Positions 5,016-25,845 of a DNA stretch of 30,818 nt are shown here, one piece after another. Every line of letters begins with the position of its first letter. Within the stretch, counting starts at the first letter, position 1. Below the pieces are notes generated by a model. The model saw only the letters and a program-made list of their open reading frames with translations, had not been told where the DNA came from and did no database searches. The position numbers and the translations under genes are program-made. This DNA comes from a virus: positions 1 through 30,818 of IMG/VR virus record IMGVR_UViG_3300021371_000071; one strand, given 5' to 3'.

Positions 5016-5642
5016 TTAGGGCGCTAGCCAGATAACTCCTTCTTCTGTACGGCGGCGGCGTAAACCTTCCTCAAAGTGTGAACCGGGGTTTCGGTAAAGA
5101 AGTAACGCACTAGGGACCTGGTCCCATTCCCGGTTCCTTAAAACACGGGTAATTGTTCGGAACGATGGCAGGCCATAAAAGTACGCTCCAAGGTTAAATG
5201 CAAAGCTGATTAACGCGGACTTTTGGTTGCCATTCATTTCCGCCCAAAAAGGCACGGTTTCTTCAAGTATGTCTGCTGTACGGTTTATCTCTAAAGTCAA
5301 CATGGTTTCAGCGCGTTGCTGGCTGATCGTTTCTCCCAGCTTTACACTTTTTCCGTCCGGGTAACGGGTATTTCCATAGCCAATTGTTGGCACGTTTGCC
5401 GGGCACATATATGAAGTTAAATGACAACCTTCAAACTTTTTAATTAGCTCTACTGCGGCACCAAAGCTTTTGTCATCCACTGCTGAACTCCATGTTCCGT
5501 ACCAGGGTTGATCCCGGTTTAACAAATCTGGTTGTGCTTTTAAAATTGCGTTTTCTAGCTCTACTAACGCGGCGCTTTGATGCGGCAGTTTTCGGTAATA
5601 CCGAAACAGGTCAGTCAGGTGAACTGGGGTTTTTGGGCTCAT
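5016..5642 (-). CDS. endolysin, GH24 lysozyme (muramidase)
   Basis: Peptidoglycan-cleaving enzyme that releases progeny. From the ATG at 5642 it has 208 residues; a TTG at 5672 would add ten. The GH24 active site is seen as KKFEG with catalytic Glu71, then Cys80 eight residues on in the place of T4 Asp20, and Thr86 in PTIGYGNT: the E-x8-(D/C)-x5-T pattern. The Cys variant is common in phage lysozymes. Residues 1-60 form an added N-terminal segment with YYRKLPHQSAALVELE, a helical motif I associate with cyanobacterial and cyanophage cell-wall proteins; it may bind the wall, but that is inferred. No signal peptide is visible, so release should depend on a holin. The 5' end overlaps the frameshifted extension of the upstream holin-like gene by 32 bases. 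Confidence 0.92.
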   Translation of the reverse strand: MSPKTPVHLTDLFRYYRKLPHQSAALVELENAILKAQPDLLNRDQPWYGTWSSAVDDKSFGAAVELIKKFEGCHLTSYMCPANVPTIGYGNTRYPDGKSVKLGETISQQRAETMLTLEINRTADILEETVPFWAEMNGNQKSALISFAFNLGAYFYGLPSFRTITRVLRNREWDQVPSALLLYRNPGSHFEEGLRRRRTEEGVIWLAP

Positions 5643-5996
5643 GCCATGGTGCGCGAAGGTGCAGGTCGTCAAGAAACTGTGGAGGTGGCACTGCGGCAGG
5701 TTGGGTTGCGTGCCAGTCCTTTTCAGCTTGGTCTAGTTTTTTGGGCAGCGTTGCGTAAAATTTACGCCGCTGGATAACCTTGTTGACCCTGCTCCATAGT
5801 GAGCGGGTGTTAAATAAAACGATCCAGCGCCCGTCAGGTGGGACTAGCCCTTTTTTCCGGGCCTGACGCTGCGGATTGCAGTGAACAAGAATTGGATGAT
5901 GCTGTTGTCCTTTAGCTTGCTCATGCCGATCAGTTCAGATGCGGCGGCGACGACAACCCAGAAAGCAGGGTGGCTAAGGATTTCCTCGAAGTTCAT
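5611..5996 (-). CDS. predicted -1 frameshift product of the holin-like gene (128 aa)
   Basis: If ribosomes slip back one base on A-AAA-AAG (5856-5850), residues 1-49 of the short protein join a 79-residue extension read from 5850 to a TGA at 5611. The extension begins GLVPPDGRW, has a basic amphipathic part (RVNKVIQRRKFYATLPKKLD), then a proline-rich tail (AAVPPPQF and PKNPSSPD). The -1 frame is open upstream to a TGA near 5930 but contains no ATG, GTG or TTG in that stretch, so an independent start is unlikely. The composition is protein-like, and the frame stops inside the endolysin start region. The fusion would place a soluble, basic and proline-rich domain behind the same membrane segment. 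Real expression is an inference; a sequencing indel is the main alternative. Confidence 0.6.
5824..5856 (-). promoter_or_regulatory. -1 ribosomal frameshift site AAAAAAG with possible hairpin
   Basis: On the minus strand the zero-frame codons GGA AAA AAG GGC TAG contain A-AAA-AAG, the most efficient known bacterial -1 heptamer (as in dnaX), with the stop two codons later. Downstream, CTAGTCCC (5847-5840) can pair with GGGCGCTGG (5832-5824) around a seven-base loop, with one bulge and two G-U pairs. An alternative helix pairs GTCAGG upstream with CCTGAC downstream and encloses the site. Neither fold has been computed. Confidence 0.55.
5844..5996 (-). CDS. small holin-like membrane protein, short form
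   Basis: A 50-residue protein starting at the ATG at 5996. Residues 9-26 (HPAFWVVVAAASELIGMS) are hydrophobic and residues 31-42 (NSIIQFLFTAI) form a second apolar stretch; the end is basic (RSVRPGKKG). Its type (short, one or two membrane segments, next to the endolysin) fits a holin or holin partner that permeabilises the inner membrane, and I associate close relatives with cyanophage late regions. No good ribosome binding site precedes it. It lies 23 bases after the upstream coiled-coil gene. Its last codons before the stop, AAA AAG, form part of a -1 slippery heptamer, see the long form. Function is inferred from size and location. Confidence 0.75.
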   Translation of the reverse strand: MNFEEILSHPAFWVVVAAASELIGMSKLKDNSIIQFLFTAIRSVRPGKKG

Positions 5997-6019: not shown

Positions 6020-6271
6020 CTAGCCTTTTGGTCCTTTGTGCTCTAAAAGTGAGATGCGGTTGCTGTGCTCGTTGAGAGTGGTGTATATTTCTTTACGATC
6101 CACTTTCATGTCTTGGTGTAATTCTTCTAGTTTGCCCGCAATGCTTTCAACAGCAGCGGTTAAACGAATAACTGCTTCGCGGGATTCATCCGTGCGGCGT
6201 GTAAACCCTGATACACTTAGCCCAGCTATACCAAGGGACGCGCCTAGGATTGCGGCGTAAATTTCAATCAC
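6020..6271 (-). CDS. small membrane-anchored coiled-coil protein (lysis region)
   Basis: An 83-residue protein with a GTG start at 6271, preceded by TAGGA at a good distance. Residues 2-20 (IEIYAAILGASLGIAGLSV) form one transmembrane segment at the N-terminus. Residues 30-75 are a charged amphipathic helix with heptad-like spacing (AVESIAGKLEELHQDM, then TTLNEHSNRISLLEH), typical of a short coiled coil. This architecture, next to an endolysin, is seen in holin accessory or holin-like proteins. It could oligomerise in the inner membrane and time lysis. No specific family is recognised with confidence. Confidence 0.75.
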   Translation of the reverse strand: MIEIYAAILGASLGIAGLSVSGFTRRTDESREAVIRLTAAVESIAGKLEELHQDMKVDRKEIYTTLNEHSNRISLLEHKGPKG

Positions 6272-7163: not shown

Positions 7164-10100
7164 TCAAGCGCCCTTAAGGGCAGCTAGTTCAAATTTAAGC
7201 TCGTTGACCATAGTAGTCAACTCTTGAACCGCATTGACCAGTACAGGTACTAGGTGTTCGCCTTTGTACTTTAGGTTGTCAGCATCTTCGGTGTCAATAA
7301 TCACGGGGTTGTCGCCTTCAAGAGCAAGAATATCTTGCGCTTTAAAACCGTAACGCACATTACCATGCGGTGTTTCAGTGTCACGATCCACCTTGAATTG
7401 GTAAGCAGTTGGCTTGAGTTGATTGACGAAGTCCAGACCATAAGGTACTGGAGCAAAGTTCATCTTATCCCGTGCGTCAGATGTAACGGTCCAAGCAACT
7501 TGGACGTAAGCATTGGTGATTCCTGTATGACCTAAAATAAGGCGATTGCTTTCTGTTGTTGGATTAAATACCGGACTATAACTTCCAGCATCGTTAAAAA
7601 AGCCTATGCCGATATTAGAGTCACCAGTGGTGGCGTCACGGAGAGTTTGACGCCCGATGGCCACGTTGTAATTACCACTGGTGTTGTTATAGAGAGCTCG
7701 GTATCCGTTAGCTATGTTGTAACTACCACTGGTGCTGTAATAAAGGGCTTCCCGTCCGACAGCTGAGTTGTTAGTACCACTAACGTTGGAGTAAAGAGTA
7801 TTTCGTCCAATAACTGTGTTGTACCCACCAGTGGTGTTCTGACGCATAGCCCCTCGCCCAATGGCTACGTTGTTAGTTCCAGTGGTGTTAGATTCGAGAG
7901 CTTCCACCCCATAAGCTATGTTGTAAGAACCCGTGGTGTTGTAGCGCAGAGATTCTCTCCCGGTAGCTGTGTTATACACACCAGTGGTGTTGGAATAAAG
8001 AGATAGGTATCCAACAGCTATGTTGTTTTCACCAGTGGTGTTGCTATAAAGAGCTTCGCGCCCGACAGCTAGGTTTAGATTGCCACTAGTGTTGGAATAG
8101 AGAGCTTGGTATCCGCTAGCTAGGTTGTTATTACCGATGGTGTTGGAATAGAGAGCCCAGACTCCGTTAGCTACGTTTTGAATACCAGTGGTGTTGGCTC
8201 GGAGAGCTTGGTATCCGTTGGCTGTGTTGTTATTACCGCCAGTGTTGGAAAAGAGAGCTTCTCGTCCGGTAGCTGTGTTTTGAACACCAGTGGTGTTGGA
8301 ATAGAGAGCGTTAAGTCCGGTAGCTACGTTTTGAATACCAGTGGTGTTGGAAAAGAGAGCTCGGTATCCGTTAGCTGTGTTGTTATAACCAGTGGTGTTG
8401 GAATAGAGAGCATCTCTTCCGTTAGCTGTGTTGTTATAACCAGTAGTGTTGTTATAGAGAGCTTCTCGTCCGTTAGCTGTGTTGTCAATACCAGTGGTGT
8501 TGATATAGAGAGCTCGGTATCCGTTAGCTGTGTTGTAACTACCACTGGTGTTGGAATAGAGAGCTTGTATTCCGTTAGCTGTGTTGTAATTACCGTCGGT
8601 GTTTGAAAAAAGAGCTCGGTATCCGGTAGCTGTGTTTTCACCACCAGTGGTGTTGGAATAGAGAGCTTGGTATCCGCTGGCTACGTTGGAACCAGCAGTG
8701 GTGTTGGAATAGAGAGCTTGGTATCCGCTGGCTACGTTGGAACCACCAGTGGTGTTGGAATAGAGAGCTTGGAATCCGCTCGCTGTGTTGGAATTACCAG
8801 TAGTGTTATTGCGGAGAGCGTCTGTTGCGGTAGCTGTGTTGGAACCACCAGTGGTGTTGGAATAGAGAGCGGATCGTCCGTTAGCTGTGTTGTTATTACC
8901 AATGGTGTTGGAATAGAAAGCTTGGTATCCGTTAGCTGTGTTGTTAACACCAGTAGTGTTACTGCGGAGAGTGTCTGTTCCGGTAGCTGTGTTGTAATTA
9001 CCAGTGGTGTTGGAATATAGAGCGGCTCGTCCGGTAGCTACGTTGCTAGTACCAGTGGTGTTGAAATAGAGAGCTTCTTGTCCGGTAGCTACGTTGCTAT
9101 TACCAGTGATGTTGTAATAGAGAGCTTGCAATCCGTTAGCTGTGTTGTTAGTACCAGTAGTGTTACTGCGGAGAGCTCGGTATCCGATAGCTGTGTTGTT
9201 ACCAGCAGTGGTGTTGGAAAAGAGAGCTAGGTATCCGATAGCTGTGTTGTTATTACCAGTGGTGTTGGCATGCAGAGCTTGCAATCCGGTAGCTGTGTTG
9301 TTAGTACCAGTAGTGTTATTGCGGAGAGCTTGCAATCCGTTCGCTGTGTTGGCACCACCAGTGGTGTTGGAAAAGAGAGCTAGGTGTCCGGTAGCTGTGT
9401 TGTTAATACCAGTGGTGTTGGAATAGAGAGCTTGGAATCCGTTAGTTACGTTTTTATAACCAGTGGTGTTGGAATAGAGAGCGTTGTATCCGATAGCTGT
9501 GTTTTGAATACCAGTGGTGTTGAAATAGAGAGCTAGGTATCCGATAGCTGTGTTTTGATCACCAGTGGTGTTGGAATAGAGAGCTTGGTATCCGTTGGCT
9601 GTGTTGTTAATGCCAGTGGTGTTGGAATATAGAGCTCGGTATCCGTTAGCTACGTTGCTACTAGCAGTAGTGTTGTTATAGAGAGCTCGGTATCCGGTAG
9701 CTGTGTTTTGAATACCAGTGGTGTTGGAATAGAGAGCTTGGAATCCGGTAGCTAAGTTGTCATTACCGGTGGTGTTGGAATAGAGAGCATCTTTTCCGTT
9801 AGCTGTGTTGCTATTAGCAGTAGTGTTGTTATAGAGAGCATTTTTTCCGGTAGCTGTATTGTTAGTACCAGTGGTGTTGGAATATAGAGCTCCGTATCCG
9901 TTAGCTACGTTGCTATTACCAGTGGTGTTGGAATATAGAGCTTCGTATCCGTTAGCTACGTTGTTACTACCAGTAGTGTTGGCACGGAGAGCGTCTCCTC
10001 CGTTAGCTACGTTACTATCACCATCGGTGTTGAAATAAAGAGCTCGGTATCCGTTAGCTGTGTTGTACTCACCAGTGGTGTTGTTATTGAGAGCTAGGTA

Positions 10101-11807
10101 TCCGGTAGCTGCGTTGTTGTTTCCAGTGGTGTTGGAAATGAGAGCTTCGTACCCATAAGCTGTGTTGTTAAGACCTTCGGTGTTGTAACGCAGAGCTCGG
10201 TATCCAGTAGCTGTGTTGTAATTACCAATGGTGTTGGCTTCCAGAGCTAGCTGTCCAATAGCTGTGTTTTGAGCGCCAGTAGTGTTGGAATAGAGAGCCG
10301 CTCGTCCAATACCTGTGTTGCCAGTACCAGTAGTGGTGGAATATAGAGCTTCATACCCAATAGCTGTATTACTACCACCAGTGGTGTTGGAATATAGAGC
10401 GAAGTATCCGTTAGCTGTGTTATGCGTACCAGTGGTGTTGGAATAGAGAGCTGCGTATCCAGTAGCTACGTTGCTAGTACCAGTGGTGTTGGAATAGAGA
10501 GCTCGGTATCCGGTAGCTGTGCTGTTACTACCAGTGGTGTTGGAATAGAGAGCTTCTCGTCCGTTAGCTGTGTTGTTATCACCGTCGGTGTTGGAATATA
10601 GAGCTTGGTATCCGTCAGCTGTGTTGCCAATACCAGTGGTGTTGCCATTGAGAGCTTGTCGTCCGGTAGCTGTGTTGTTACTACCGCTGATGTTGGAAAA
10701 GAGAGCTCGGTATCCGTTAGCTACGTTGCTATTACCAGTGGTGTTGGCACTGAGAGCTTGTCGTCCGTTAGCTGTGTTGAAATCACCAGTGGTGTTGGAA
10801 AAGAGAGCTCGGTATCCGTAGGCTGTGTTGCTACTACCAGTGGTGTTGGAATAGAGAGCTTGATAACCAACCGCCGTATTTGTGGAAACGCTGCTGTTGC
10901 CAAGGCCAACAGTTAGCGTGTTGAGTAATACGTCTGCGGGAACATCCAATTTCGCCTGCGGACTACTCGTCCCGATGCCCACGTTGCCAGCGGAGTCGAT
11001 GCGCATGGCCTCGCTGCCATCGACCGTAAACTGCATGATTGTAAGTGGGACCGAAGTATTAGCAAAATCAGCCGCAATGTTGAAAATAGATACTGTTCCG
11101 CTTTCGTTGTATGTTAATGAACCGTATCCACCAGCGGTGTCAGAAATGCGTAGCTCTGTATTTGCGCTGCCTTTTATTTCTAAATTTGCCCCAGGACTAC
11201 TCGTCCCGATGCCGACGTCGCCATCTGCAGCAACAAACAACCTTCCTGTGCCTGCTGTAGACAAGGCGATCTGATTAACACCGGGCGAATAAAGTCCTGT
11301 ATCAGTGTCGCCCGTAAAAGTAATTGTTGGCGCAGCAGCCGAACCTAATGGGTGGTTAGCAGTGCTATCAAACGTTGCCGTACTTGTAACGTCAAGTGAT
11401 CCAGGGATGTCTACATTGCTGGTCCACTCAACGTCATTTCCTGCAGCGTTGGTATGCAAAAGCTGGTAAGCCGCTCCATCCTGCAACTTGCTGACAGGCA
11501 GTTCGTCTGCAACGACACCAATCCAAGCGCTACCGTTCCAAACCTTTAATTGTGCTGGAGTAAGACTCGTATCAAGCCACTGCTCACCCTTGGAATTTCC
11601 GGTGCTACCGCCAACGGCAGGGGTTGAATTTGGCGCTGTCGTTCCAACGTGGACTGGGCCTACTTTTACAATGCCCGTACCAGCGGAATCTTTGAAAAAT
11701 ACGCCGGGGCTTGCAATGTTGGTGTTAATAGCAACTTGGCCATCAGCCAGGCTTGTGGTAGGGCGCTTGCTGTCAACGTTGCTGCGGATGTGCTTGTATG
11801 TGGCCAT
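7164..11807 (-). CDS. tail fibre with 64 heptadecapeptide repeats and S74 chaperone domain
   Basis: A 1547-residue fibre starting at ATG 11807 behind GGGAG. Residues 1-130 include a cyanophage-type fibre start (ATYKHIRSN and EQWLDTSLTP...WNGSAW). Residues 130-305 hold two GNVGIGTSSP-like elements. Residues 310-1397 are 64 tandem 17-residue repeats, consensus NTATGYRALYSNTTGxN, resembling the beta-roll head repeats of trimeric adhesins. The last 105 residues are an S74 (endosialidase-type) intramolecular chaperone: SDARDK gives Ser1443 and Lys1448, the self-cleavage dyad, and a coiled-coil end follows (VNAVQELTTMVNEL). By family rule the chaperone helps the trimer fold and then is cut off before Ser1443. 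The fibre likely contacts the host surface. Confidence 0.93.
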   Translation of the reverse strand: MATYKHIRSNVDSKRPTTSLADGQVAINTNIASPGVFFKDSAGTGIVKVGPVHVGTTAPNSTPAVGGSTGNSKGEQWLDTSLTPAQLKVWNGSAWIGVVADELPVSKLQDGAAYQLLHTNAAGNDVEWTSNVDIPGSLDVTSTATFDSTANHPLGSAAAPTITFTGDTDTGLYSPGVNQIALSTAGTGRLFVAADGDVGIGTSSPGANLEIKGSANTELRISDTAGGYGSLTYNESGTVSIFNIAADFANTSVPLTIMQFTVDGSEAMRIDSAGNVGIGTSSPQAKLDVPADVLLNTLTVGLGNSSVSTNTAVGYQALYSNTTGSSNTAYGYRALFSNTTGDFNTANGRQALSANTTGNSNVANGYRALFSNISGSNNTATGRQALNGNTTGIGNTADGYQALYSNTDGDNNTANGREALYSNTTGSNSTATGYRALYSNTTGTSNVATGYAALYSNTTGTHNTANGYFALYSNTTGGSNTAIGYEALYSTTTGTGNTGIGRAALYSNTTGAQNTAIGQLALEANTIGNYNTATGYRALRYNTEGLNNTAYGYEALISNTTGNNNAATGYLALNNNTTGEYNTANGYRALYFNTDGDSNVANGGDALRANTTGSNNVANGYEALYSNTTGNSNVANGYGALYSNTTGTNNTATGKNALYNNTTANSNTANGKDALYSNTTGNDNLATGFQALYSNTTGIQNTATGYRALYNNTTASSNVANGYRALYSNTTGINNTANGYQALYSNTTGDQNTAIGYLALYFNTTGIQNTAIGYNALYSNTTGYKNVTNGFQALYSNTTGINNTATGHLALFSNTTGGANTANGLQALRNNTTGTNNTATGLQALHANTTGNNNTAIGYLALFSNTTAGNNTAIGYRALRSNTTGTNNTANGLQALYYNITGNSNVATGQEALYFNTTGTSNVATGRAALYSNTTGNYNTATGTDTLRSNTTGVNNTANGYQAFYSNTIGNNNTANGRSALYSNTTGGSNTATATDALRNNTTGNSNTASGFQALYSNTTGGSNVASGYQALYSNTTAGSNVASGYQALYSNTTGGENTATGYRALFSNTDGNYNTANGIQALYSNTSGSYNTANGYRALYINTTGIDNTANGREALYNNTTGYNNTANGRDALYSNTTGYNNTANGYRALFSNTTGIQNVATGLNALYSNTTGVQNTATGREALFSNTGGNNNTANGYQALRANTTGIQNVANGVWALYSNTIGNNNLASGYQALYSNTSGNLNLAVGREALYSNTTGENNIAVGYLSLYSNTTGVYNTATGRESLRYNTTGSYNIAYGVEALESNTTGTNNVAIGRGAMRQNTTGGYNTVIGRNTLYSNVSGTNNSAVGREALYYSTSGSYNIANGYRALYNNTSGNYNVAIGRQTLRDATTGDSNIGIGFFNDAGSYSPVFNPTTESNRLILGHTGITNAYVQVAWTVTSDARDKMNFAPVPYGLDFVNQLKPTAYQFKVDRDTETPHGNVRYGFKAQDILALEGDNPVIIDTEDADNLKYKGEHLVPVLVNAVQELTTMVNELKFELAALKGA
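7617..10880 (-). repeat. 64 tandem copies of a 51-bp coding repeat
   Basis: The span is exactly 3264 bases, or 64 units of 51 bp, each coding one 17-residue fibre repeat. The most constant residues are N1, G5, A8, L9, N12, T13 and G15. No unit is inserted, lost or frame-broken. Copies differ enough at the base level to show they are old, though neighbours such as units 43 and 44 are nearly identical. Confidence 0.95.
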
Positions 11808-25312: not shown

Positions 25313-25845
25313 CTACCTCCTACGGCGGGCTTTTTCCATTTGTTTTTCTTGCTCTTCATTGATGATCTGGAAATAAGCGCTCCAACCCAGCAGTTCTTCC
25401 GGGGTCATCGTGGTGCGGACTTCAGTCAAGCTCATGCCAAGCTCTTTAGCAACGCCAAATTGCAGCATGAGCCAGTTGTCTTTGCGAAGTTCCGCAACTA
25501 GGATTTTGGGTCCATTGGCTCTTCGTCTTCGTCGCTAAGAATGGCCAGCATCAAAGACTGCAGATCGCTATCCTTGACTTCGTTTTTTAAAATATCAATT
25601 TCACCAGCAGAGAACAGCCTGGCGCCGTTTTGGTCTTGCGCTTTTGCAACCAGCAGCTGCAATGCAAATGCTCCAGCGTCGTCAGACTTAGCTTGCTTTT
25701 GGGCGCGTTCGCGCTCAGCCATAGTTAACGGGCTAATCCACATTTCAAATGTGGTGCCGTCAGACAGTTTGACCTTACGCTTACTCGGCTGAAGATTTGC
25801 TGCTTTACGCAGCCGGTCGATAGCGCGAGTAGATCCAGCGGGCAT
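25313..25845 (-). CDS. tail assembly chaperone, -1 frameshift form (gpG-T-like, 177 aa)
   Basis: After 114 zero-frame codons, a -1 slip at CCCAAAA (25510-25504) leads into a 63-residue extension ending in a TAG at 25313. The extension reads like the T domain of siphophage chaperones: NWLMLQFGVAKELGMSLTEV, then MTPEELLGWSAYFQI and a basic end ARRRR. There is no good independent start for it in place. By analogy with lambda gpGT, the long form is made in small amounts and its T part binds tail-tube protein. The slippery site, hairpin and domain content agree well, so I regard this as near certain. Confidence 0.9.
25482..25510 (-). promoter_or_regulatory. -1 frameshift signal CCCAAAA with downstream hairpin
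   Basis: The heptamer C-CCA-AAA (25510-25504) is in the phase required for a -1 slip, two codons before the zero-frame TAG. After six spacer bases a perfect stem TTGCG/CGCAA (25497-25493 and 25486-25482) closes a six-base loop. Site, spacing and hairpin fit a programmed frameshift signal. Confidence 0.88.
25498..25845 (-). CDS. tail assembly chaperone, short form (gpG-like)
   Basis: A 115-residue protein from ATG 25845 ending at a TAG at 25498. Residues 18-36 (PSKRKVKLSDGTTFEMWIS) form a strand pair, then PLTMAERERAQKQAK starts the helical body, and the end is acidic (SDEDEEPMD). This is the pattern of the G-like chaperones that coat the tape measure and recruit tail-tube protein. It sits directly in front of the tape measure gene and its end carries the slippery site CCCAAAA, as in lambda gpG. 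Family assignment is by architecture and location. Confidence 0.88.
   Translation of the reverse strand: MPAGSTRAIDRLRKAANLQPSKRKVKLSDGTTFEMWISPLTMAERERAQKQAKSDDAGAFALQLLVAKAQDQNGARLFSAGEIDILKNEVKDSDLQSLMLAILSDEDEEPMDPKS

Follow-up and report, generated by a model that had tools for sequence, protein, structure and literature searches.

Ribosomal frameshifting in the -1 direction is itself a known process, especially in phage tail and capsid genes. The -1 frameshift of tail assembly chaperone genes, exemplified by lambda G/GT, was reportedly described by Xu, Hendrix and Duda in 2004. The cyanophage gene analyzed here shares the mechanism of lambda G/GT, but it encodes a membrane protein and adjoins an endolysin gene, whereas the lambda frameshift lies between a tail protein gene and the tape measure gene. 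Its slippery heptamer, A_AAA_AAG, is identical to that of E. coli dnaX, although the dnaX shift shortens the product and the shift considered here lengthens it. In E. coli, a single tRNA-Lys serves both codons of A_AAA_AAG, and the heptamer is very prone to shifting; with tRNA-Lys(UUU) alone, AAG is weakly read and slippery (PMC5009743). For the MS2 lysis gene, a frame change linked to expression has been proposed (Kastelein 1982; Berkhout 1987, both cited in PMC5009743).

The window is the whole stretch of viral DNA that was analyzed, 30,818 nucleotides long (IMG/VR record IMGVR_UViG_3300021371_000071), and the isolate closest to it by DNA is Synechococcus phage KBS-S-2A. The features of the locus, in the order in which they are read, are:

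6271..6020, minus strand: upstream gene for an 83-aa protein (PHROG 26178, unknown function; weak hemolysin match, E 0.004)
5996..5844, minus strand: small membrane protein gene, short form of 50 aa plus TAG (PHROG 22542, E 1e-26, unknown function); holin candidate
5856..5850, minus strand: slippery heptamer A_AAA_AAG, in phase (GGA AAA AAG GGC TAG), one codon 5' of the 0-frame stop
5850..5611, minus strand: -1 frame extension, 79 codons plus TGA (5613-5611), from direct reading of the translated strand
5849..5770, minus strand: 3' flank of the heptamer, the expected place of a stimulatory RNA structure, which is weak in the window (folding versus shuffles)
5642..5016, minus strand: endolysin, Phage_lysozyme PF00959 (Pfam E 6e-25; PHROG endolysin)

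An initial annotation of this DNA had placed A-AAA-AAG in exact phase at the end of the 50-codon gene, followed by a -1 frame open for 79 codons from 5850 to 5611; the coordinates of the first were reproduced exactly, and the open frame was confirmed on the minus strand. The short form starts at the ATG at 5996, and the second product differs from it at the C-terminus. Direct reading gives a long form of 49 + 79 = 128 aa, in line with the proposed 50-aa and 128-aa products, for neither of which there are expression data. The -1 frame was also said to lack an upstream ATG, GTG or TTG, and none occurs in the translated -1 frame of the window as far back as its previous stop, which lies 91 nt 5' of the 0-frame stop. 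Likewise, the ORF list of the window contains no ORF of at least 45 aa with an ATG, GTG or TTG start that ends at 5611.

We interpret this arrangement, with very high confidence for a conclusion drawn from sequence, as a programmed -1 frameshift at A_AAA_AAG; slippage in cells and its rate are inferred, in the absence of expression data. Most ribosomes would finish the 50-codon gene and release a short membrane protein shaped as a helical hairpin. A fraction would slip back one base on A_AAA_AAG, with both tRNA-Lys molecules re-pairing in the -1 frame, and these ribosomes would bypass the stop one codon later to produce the 128-aa form, which carries the same membrane part followed by a helix and a Pro-rich tail. 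This added part would probably lie on the cytoplasmic side. In a Cyanobium draft genome that carries a divergent copy of the cassette (locus L350), the only cyanobacterial genome examined for this, tRNA-Lys(UUU) is the sole tRNA-Lys among 36 typed tRNAs, with the caveat that the draft may be incomplete. This copy is found at 3813-5211 of L350, a whole genome shotgun contig of Cyanobium sp. N5-Cardenillas, where its neighbors are a putative endolysin gene and further phage-like genes; it is possibly part of a prophage.

About 350 related loci were collected with scans that used the fused protein, the membrane part alone, a podovirus version, a freshwater extension profile and a divergent version as queries, and annotated phages were added; many of these loci are one contig fetched repeatedly. 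All plus-strand ORFs of the collected loci were then searched with one profile for each of the two parts, membrane and extension. Both parts are present in 323 loci. The extension overlaps the membrane gene in the -1 frame in every one of these, and in none is it in frame or in the +1 frame. Homologues with both parts in one frame, which the initial annotation had named as grounds for refuting the frameshift, are thus absent from this set (0 of 323). Conservation of the site had been proposed as a check, and an in-phase X_XXY_YYZ heptamer within the overlap is present in 178 of 182 distinct sequences (A_AAA_AAG in 155, C_CCA_AAG in 20 and G_GGA_AAG in 3), almost always ending one codon 5' of the stop. 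The G_GGA_AAG site of phage S-EIV1 is the heptamer of lambda G/GT. About half of the 20 C_CCA_AAG members also have an overlapping T_TTC_CCA. The 182 sequences are not independent, falling into 59 membrane-protein groups below 90% identity.

Among the 140 sequences with the site one codon before the stop, the codon preceding A_AAA_AAG ends in A across many amino acids (GCA, GGA, CCA, CGA, GTA, CAA, TCA, ACA, AGA and GAA were seen). That A belongs to the definition of the heptamer, so the weight of the argument lies on the rarity of exceptions. Of the 182, only four have no perfect heptamer that could serve for slippage. Two sites are degraded, to AAG AAG in L229 and to G_AAA_AAG in L237, and the L350 site is C_CCC_AAG. 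In the fourth, L109, A_AAA_AAG is intact but a TAG in the -1 frame forms the second codon after the site (about 2645-2660). No other distinct sequence has its second frame interrupted there, an outcome that had also been named as a possible refutation. Where its relative L120 has CGC, L109 has the synonymous CGT, and this difference creates the stop. As a separate observation, the extension frame of L117 runs from 2647 onward into the endolysin gene without a stop, and a frameshift there would give a fusion of membrane part, extension and endolysin.

Loci with a single part are few, 21 with the membrane part alone and 6 with the extension alone. None of the 19 complete membrane-only loci has an in-phase heptamer, and those that encode Lys-Lys spell it AAG AAA or AAG AAG. 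Of the six extension-only loci, five run off the end of a contig close to the site, and three of these (L032, L209 and L317) are apparently the same sequence; the exception, L337, combines a divergent membrane gene with a G_GGG_AAG site. In the record of S-EIV1 (KJ410740; 1501-1904 of the collected locus L036), the membrane gene is unannotated and the extension is filed as a separate hypothetical protein, AHV82131.

The A-run in most members (6-7 A) would also suit a model in which transcriptional slippage generates mRNAs of altered length, some of which encode the long form. However, members with C_CCA_AAG or G_GGA_AAG have the same frame arrangement with runs of at most 3-4 identical bases at the site, and a run of 6 A is short for polymerase slippage. 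We regard this model as highly improbable.

Selection was measured by pairwise dN/dS according to Nei and Gojobori. For the extension its median over 1351 pairs is 0.23; the membrane part gives 0.25. Within a same-length set of 60 sequences, dN/dS is 0.16 in the -1 frame, whereas the two remaining frames, with values of 1.2 and 1.9, contain stops over the same bases in all 60. A pooled ratio of about 0.68 was set aside because most of its weight comes from saturated pairs that match in length but are not aligned; pairs 70-97% identical were used instead. With these pairs, pN/pS is 0.13 over the first ten codons past the site and exceeds 1 only in the last eight extension codons, where the endolysin start overlaps. 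Purifying selection in both frames, which the initial annotation had proposed to look for, is therefore found (dN/dS about 0.16-0.23 in the extension and 0.25 in the membrane part). The low pN/pS from the first codons onward indicates that the protein-coding role of the extension begins at the site itself, which argues against a start further downstream.

These data also dispose of the simplest alternative, a sequencing error or a once-single-frame gene that has since decayed. A homopolymer at the junction is just where a single-base error in the A-run might be suspected, and the initial annotation had held this out as the dull explanation. It is refuted by the recurrence of the same -1 relation in 323 loci without any in-frame version, by the purifying selection, and by the presence of the arrangement in isolates (KBS-S-2A, S-CBS1, S-CBS3, S-B28 and S-EIV1) and metagenomes alike; the chance that it is correct is negligible.

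A more serious alternative is termination-reinitiation, in which the extension would be a separate protein begun at a non-AUG start, in the style of the MS2 lysis gene, by ribosomes that end at the overlapping stop. The annotators of S-CBS1 and S-CBS3 did give the extension its own CDS with an internal start, and the -1 codon that overlaps the stop is CTG in 118 of 182 sequences, creating a CTGA overlap. Against this, the overlapping codon is CTA in 39 (the window included), GTA in 13 and TTA in 6, and it is ATG in none of the 182 even though ATG is often one synonymous change away. Moreover, 142 of the 182 have no ATG, GTG or TTG between the site and 30 nt beyond the stop. Reinitiation also leaves unexplained both the conservation of three kinds of heptamer and their absence where the extension is absent. 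We consider it very unlikely. In sum, the frame relation (323 of 323), the heptamers (178 of 182) and the selection on both frames support programmed -1 frameshifting as originally proposed; together they exclude sequencing error and make both reinitiation and transcriptional slippage unlikely.

A different question is whether a real frameshift serves mainly for translational coupling. The endolysin gene begins with the ATG at 5642 and shares its first 32 nt with the last part of the extension, and shifted ribosomes might reach the extension stop within the endolysin start region and load the endolysin gene, the peptide being secondary. This model accords with the position of the first possible endolysin start, which comes before the extension ends, both in the window and in those relatives that have an endolysin homologue, and with the L117 extension frame, which enters the endolysin without a stop. 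However, purifying selection acts along most of the extension protein, and the extension is retained in podoviruses and S-EIV1, where no endolysin adjoins the gene. Coupling as the main purpose is therefore unlikely, though less so than the alternatives to frameshifting itself.

The initial annotation had also suggested that a bulged stem can form downstream of the site. In the window this is the one weak point: folding of the 80 nt that follow the heptamer is nothing out of the ordinary, since many shuffled sequences do as well (z about -0.9). The family as a whole does have excess structure, with a mean z of -1.5 for the 80-nt 3' flank of 56 diverse relatives versus shuffled sequence, and a mean near 0 for control windows 120-300 nt upstream. 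The signal is diffuse, extending from 0 to about +150 nt, and strong hairpins lie downstream in three relatives (L037, L113 and L258). A stimulatory structure probably exists in some members of the family, but for the window it is unproven.

The membrane protein is small and hydrophobic (45-50 aa, by hydropathy), with two helices predicted by AlphaFold2 at residues 10-25 and 32-44 (pLDDT 80) and an invariant Ser-Glu inside the hydrophobic stretch. The extension is predicted to form one long helix (18-48; pLDDT 75), followed by a Pro-rich tail that ends the long form in a conserved APW-type motif. Neither part matches a named family, and for the membrane part no holin family was hit in Pfam or NCBIfam, the only hit being PHROG 22542, of unknown function. 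Fold comparisons gave no match for the extension in the PDB (best E 3.7) or for the membrane part in BFVD (best E 4), and the extension profile found only a troponin-like coiled coil among PDB sequences (E 0.18).

Of 124 loci with an ORF downstream of the gene, 106 have an endolysin homologue there; of 156 relatives with an ORF upstream of it, 126 have a homologue of the 83-aa protein. The 83-aa protein has an N-terminal hydrophobic stretch (by hydropathy) and a probable coiled coil, and it likely belongs to the same cassette. No endolysin adjoins the gene in S-EIV1 or in the podoviruses with the extension (S-B28 and WH11-B); in these two podoviruses it sits between tail-fibre-region genes and the terminase small subunit (so called in WH11-B). 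This is the place of T7 gene 17.5, the T7 holin. More distant podoviruses (P60, S-CBP1, S-CBP3, S-CBP42 and S-SRP01) and S-CBS4 have a related membrane protein without the extension, and the membrane genes of the P60-type podoviruses and S-CBS4 lie near a lysozyme, glycoside hydrolase or muramidase gene.

Elsewhere on the minus strand of the window, 7164-11807 encodes a 1547-aa tail-fibre-like protein with a very long SNTTGxxNTAxGxxAL repeat array. A tail-chaperone identity for the frameshifted membrane gene was rejected, because the gene does not lie between the major tail protein and the tape measure; the chaperone pair is at 25845-25313. The chaperone gene (25845..25498, minus strand) ends GAC CCA AAA TCC TAG with an in-phase C_CCA_AAA at 25510-25504, and its -1 frame continues to about 25313, before the tape measure gene, making it a candidate for a G/GT-type frameshift.

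The adjoining endolysin and the T7-holin position of the podovirus copy make a holin-type product with a frameshifted long form the best reading. A lysis function is probable but not secure, and hole formation is inferred. The holin-like label of the initial annotation is accordingly plausible, in that the protein is small and membrane-bound, has an endolysin neighbor in most relatives and occupies the T7-holin position; lacking a named family, it remains unproven. Alternatively, the frameshift may be real and the gene not a holin, with both forms doing another membrane job late in infection. The missing holin family match and the invariant Ser-Glu in the hydrophobic stretch keep this possibility alive, but the endolysin and TM-coiled-coil neighbors, the T7-like position and the proximity of the extension-less membrane genes to lysozyme or muramidase genes lead us to think it the less probable reading.

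Taken as a whole, the data are best explained, we believe with good confidence, by a frameshifted membrane gene within the cassette that makes a short membrane protein, probably a holin, and a long partner. The short form would be the holin or pinholin of the cassette. The long form might be a partner made in fixed ratio that tunes hole formation, or might anchor one of its neighbors, the endolysin or the coiled-coil 83-aa protein, to the membrane; that it is a regulator rather than a killer is only a tentative suggestion, and the effector and regulator roles of the initial annotation are likewise conjecture. More speculative still is a lysis clock: in many picocyanobacterial phages, slippage, chiefly at two successive lysine codons that tRNA-Lys decodes, would fix how much holin is made relative to its extended partner. 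If such a clock exists, lysis timing could depend on how fast the host translates or on how much tRNA-Lys it supplies.

For a conclusion that rests on sequence alone, the frameshift could hardly be better supported, and the lysis role is likely. How phages lyse marine and freshwater Synechococcus and Cyanobium is poorly known, and the analysis names a candidate holin family whose long form has been missed or split in two in the phage records examined. It also adds a widespread class of frameshift outside tail and capsid genes, and the natural series of slippery sites (A_AAA_AAG, C_CCA_AAG and G_GGA_AAG) could be used for frameshifting tests in cyanobacteria. The author of the initial annotation knew of no frameshift in a lysis gene, and no report of a frameshifted holin or cyanophage lysis gene was found in the open-access literature, mostly represented by titles and the starts of abstracts. 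Papers that match holin or antiholin together with frameshift concern tail or capsid frameshifts, and frameshift reviews and prediction papers in this literature mention MS2 lysis and no frameshifted holin. Use in a lysis cassette thus appears to be new within the open-access literature, although a search so confined could have missed an earlier report.

Three described systems invite comparison with the gene as interpreted here. T7 gene 10A/10B likewise yields a short major form and a C-terminally extended minor form from one gene, but its product is structural (the capsid), whereas the cyanophage gene encodes a small membrane protein. MS2 relies on a start codon at which ribosomes that have shifted frame or terminated begin anew, while the cyanophage gene has no conserved start codon and would make a fusion product. 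The lambda S holin and antiholin (S105/S107) are two related membrane products made in a set ratio from one lysis gene, a likeness that serves as a working model. Lambda S achieves this with two starts and two N-termini; the cyanophage gene would do so with one start and a frameshift, the extra part being C-terminal.
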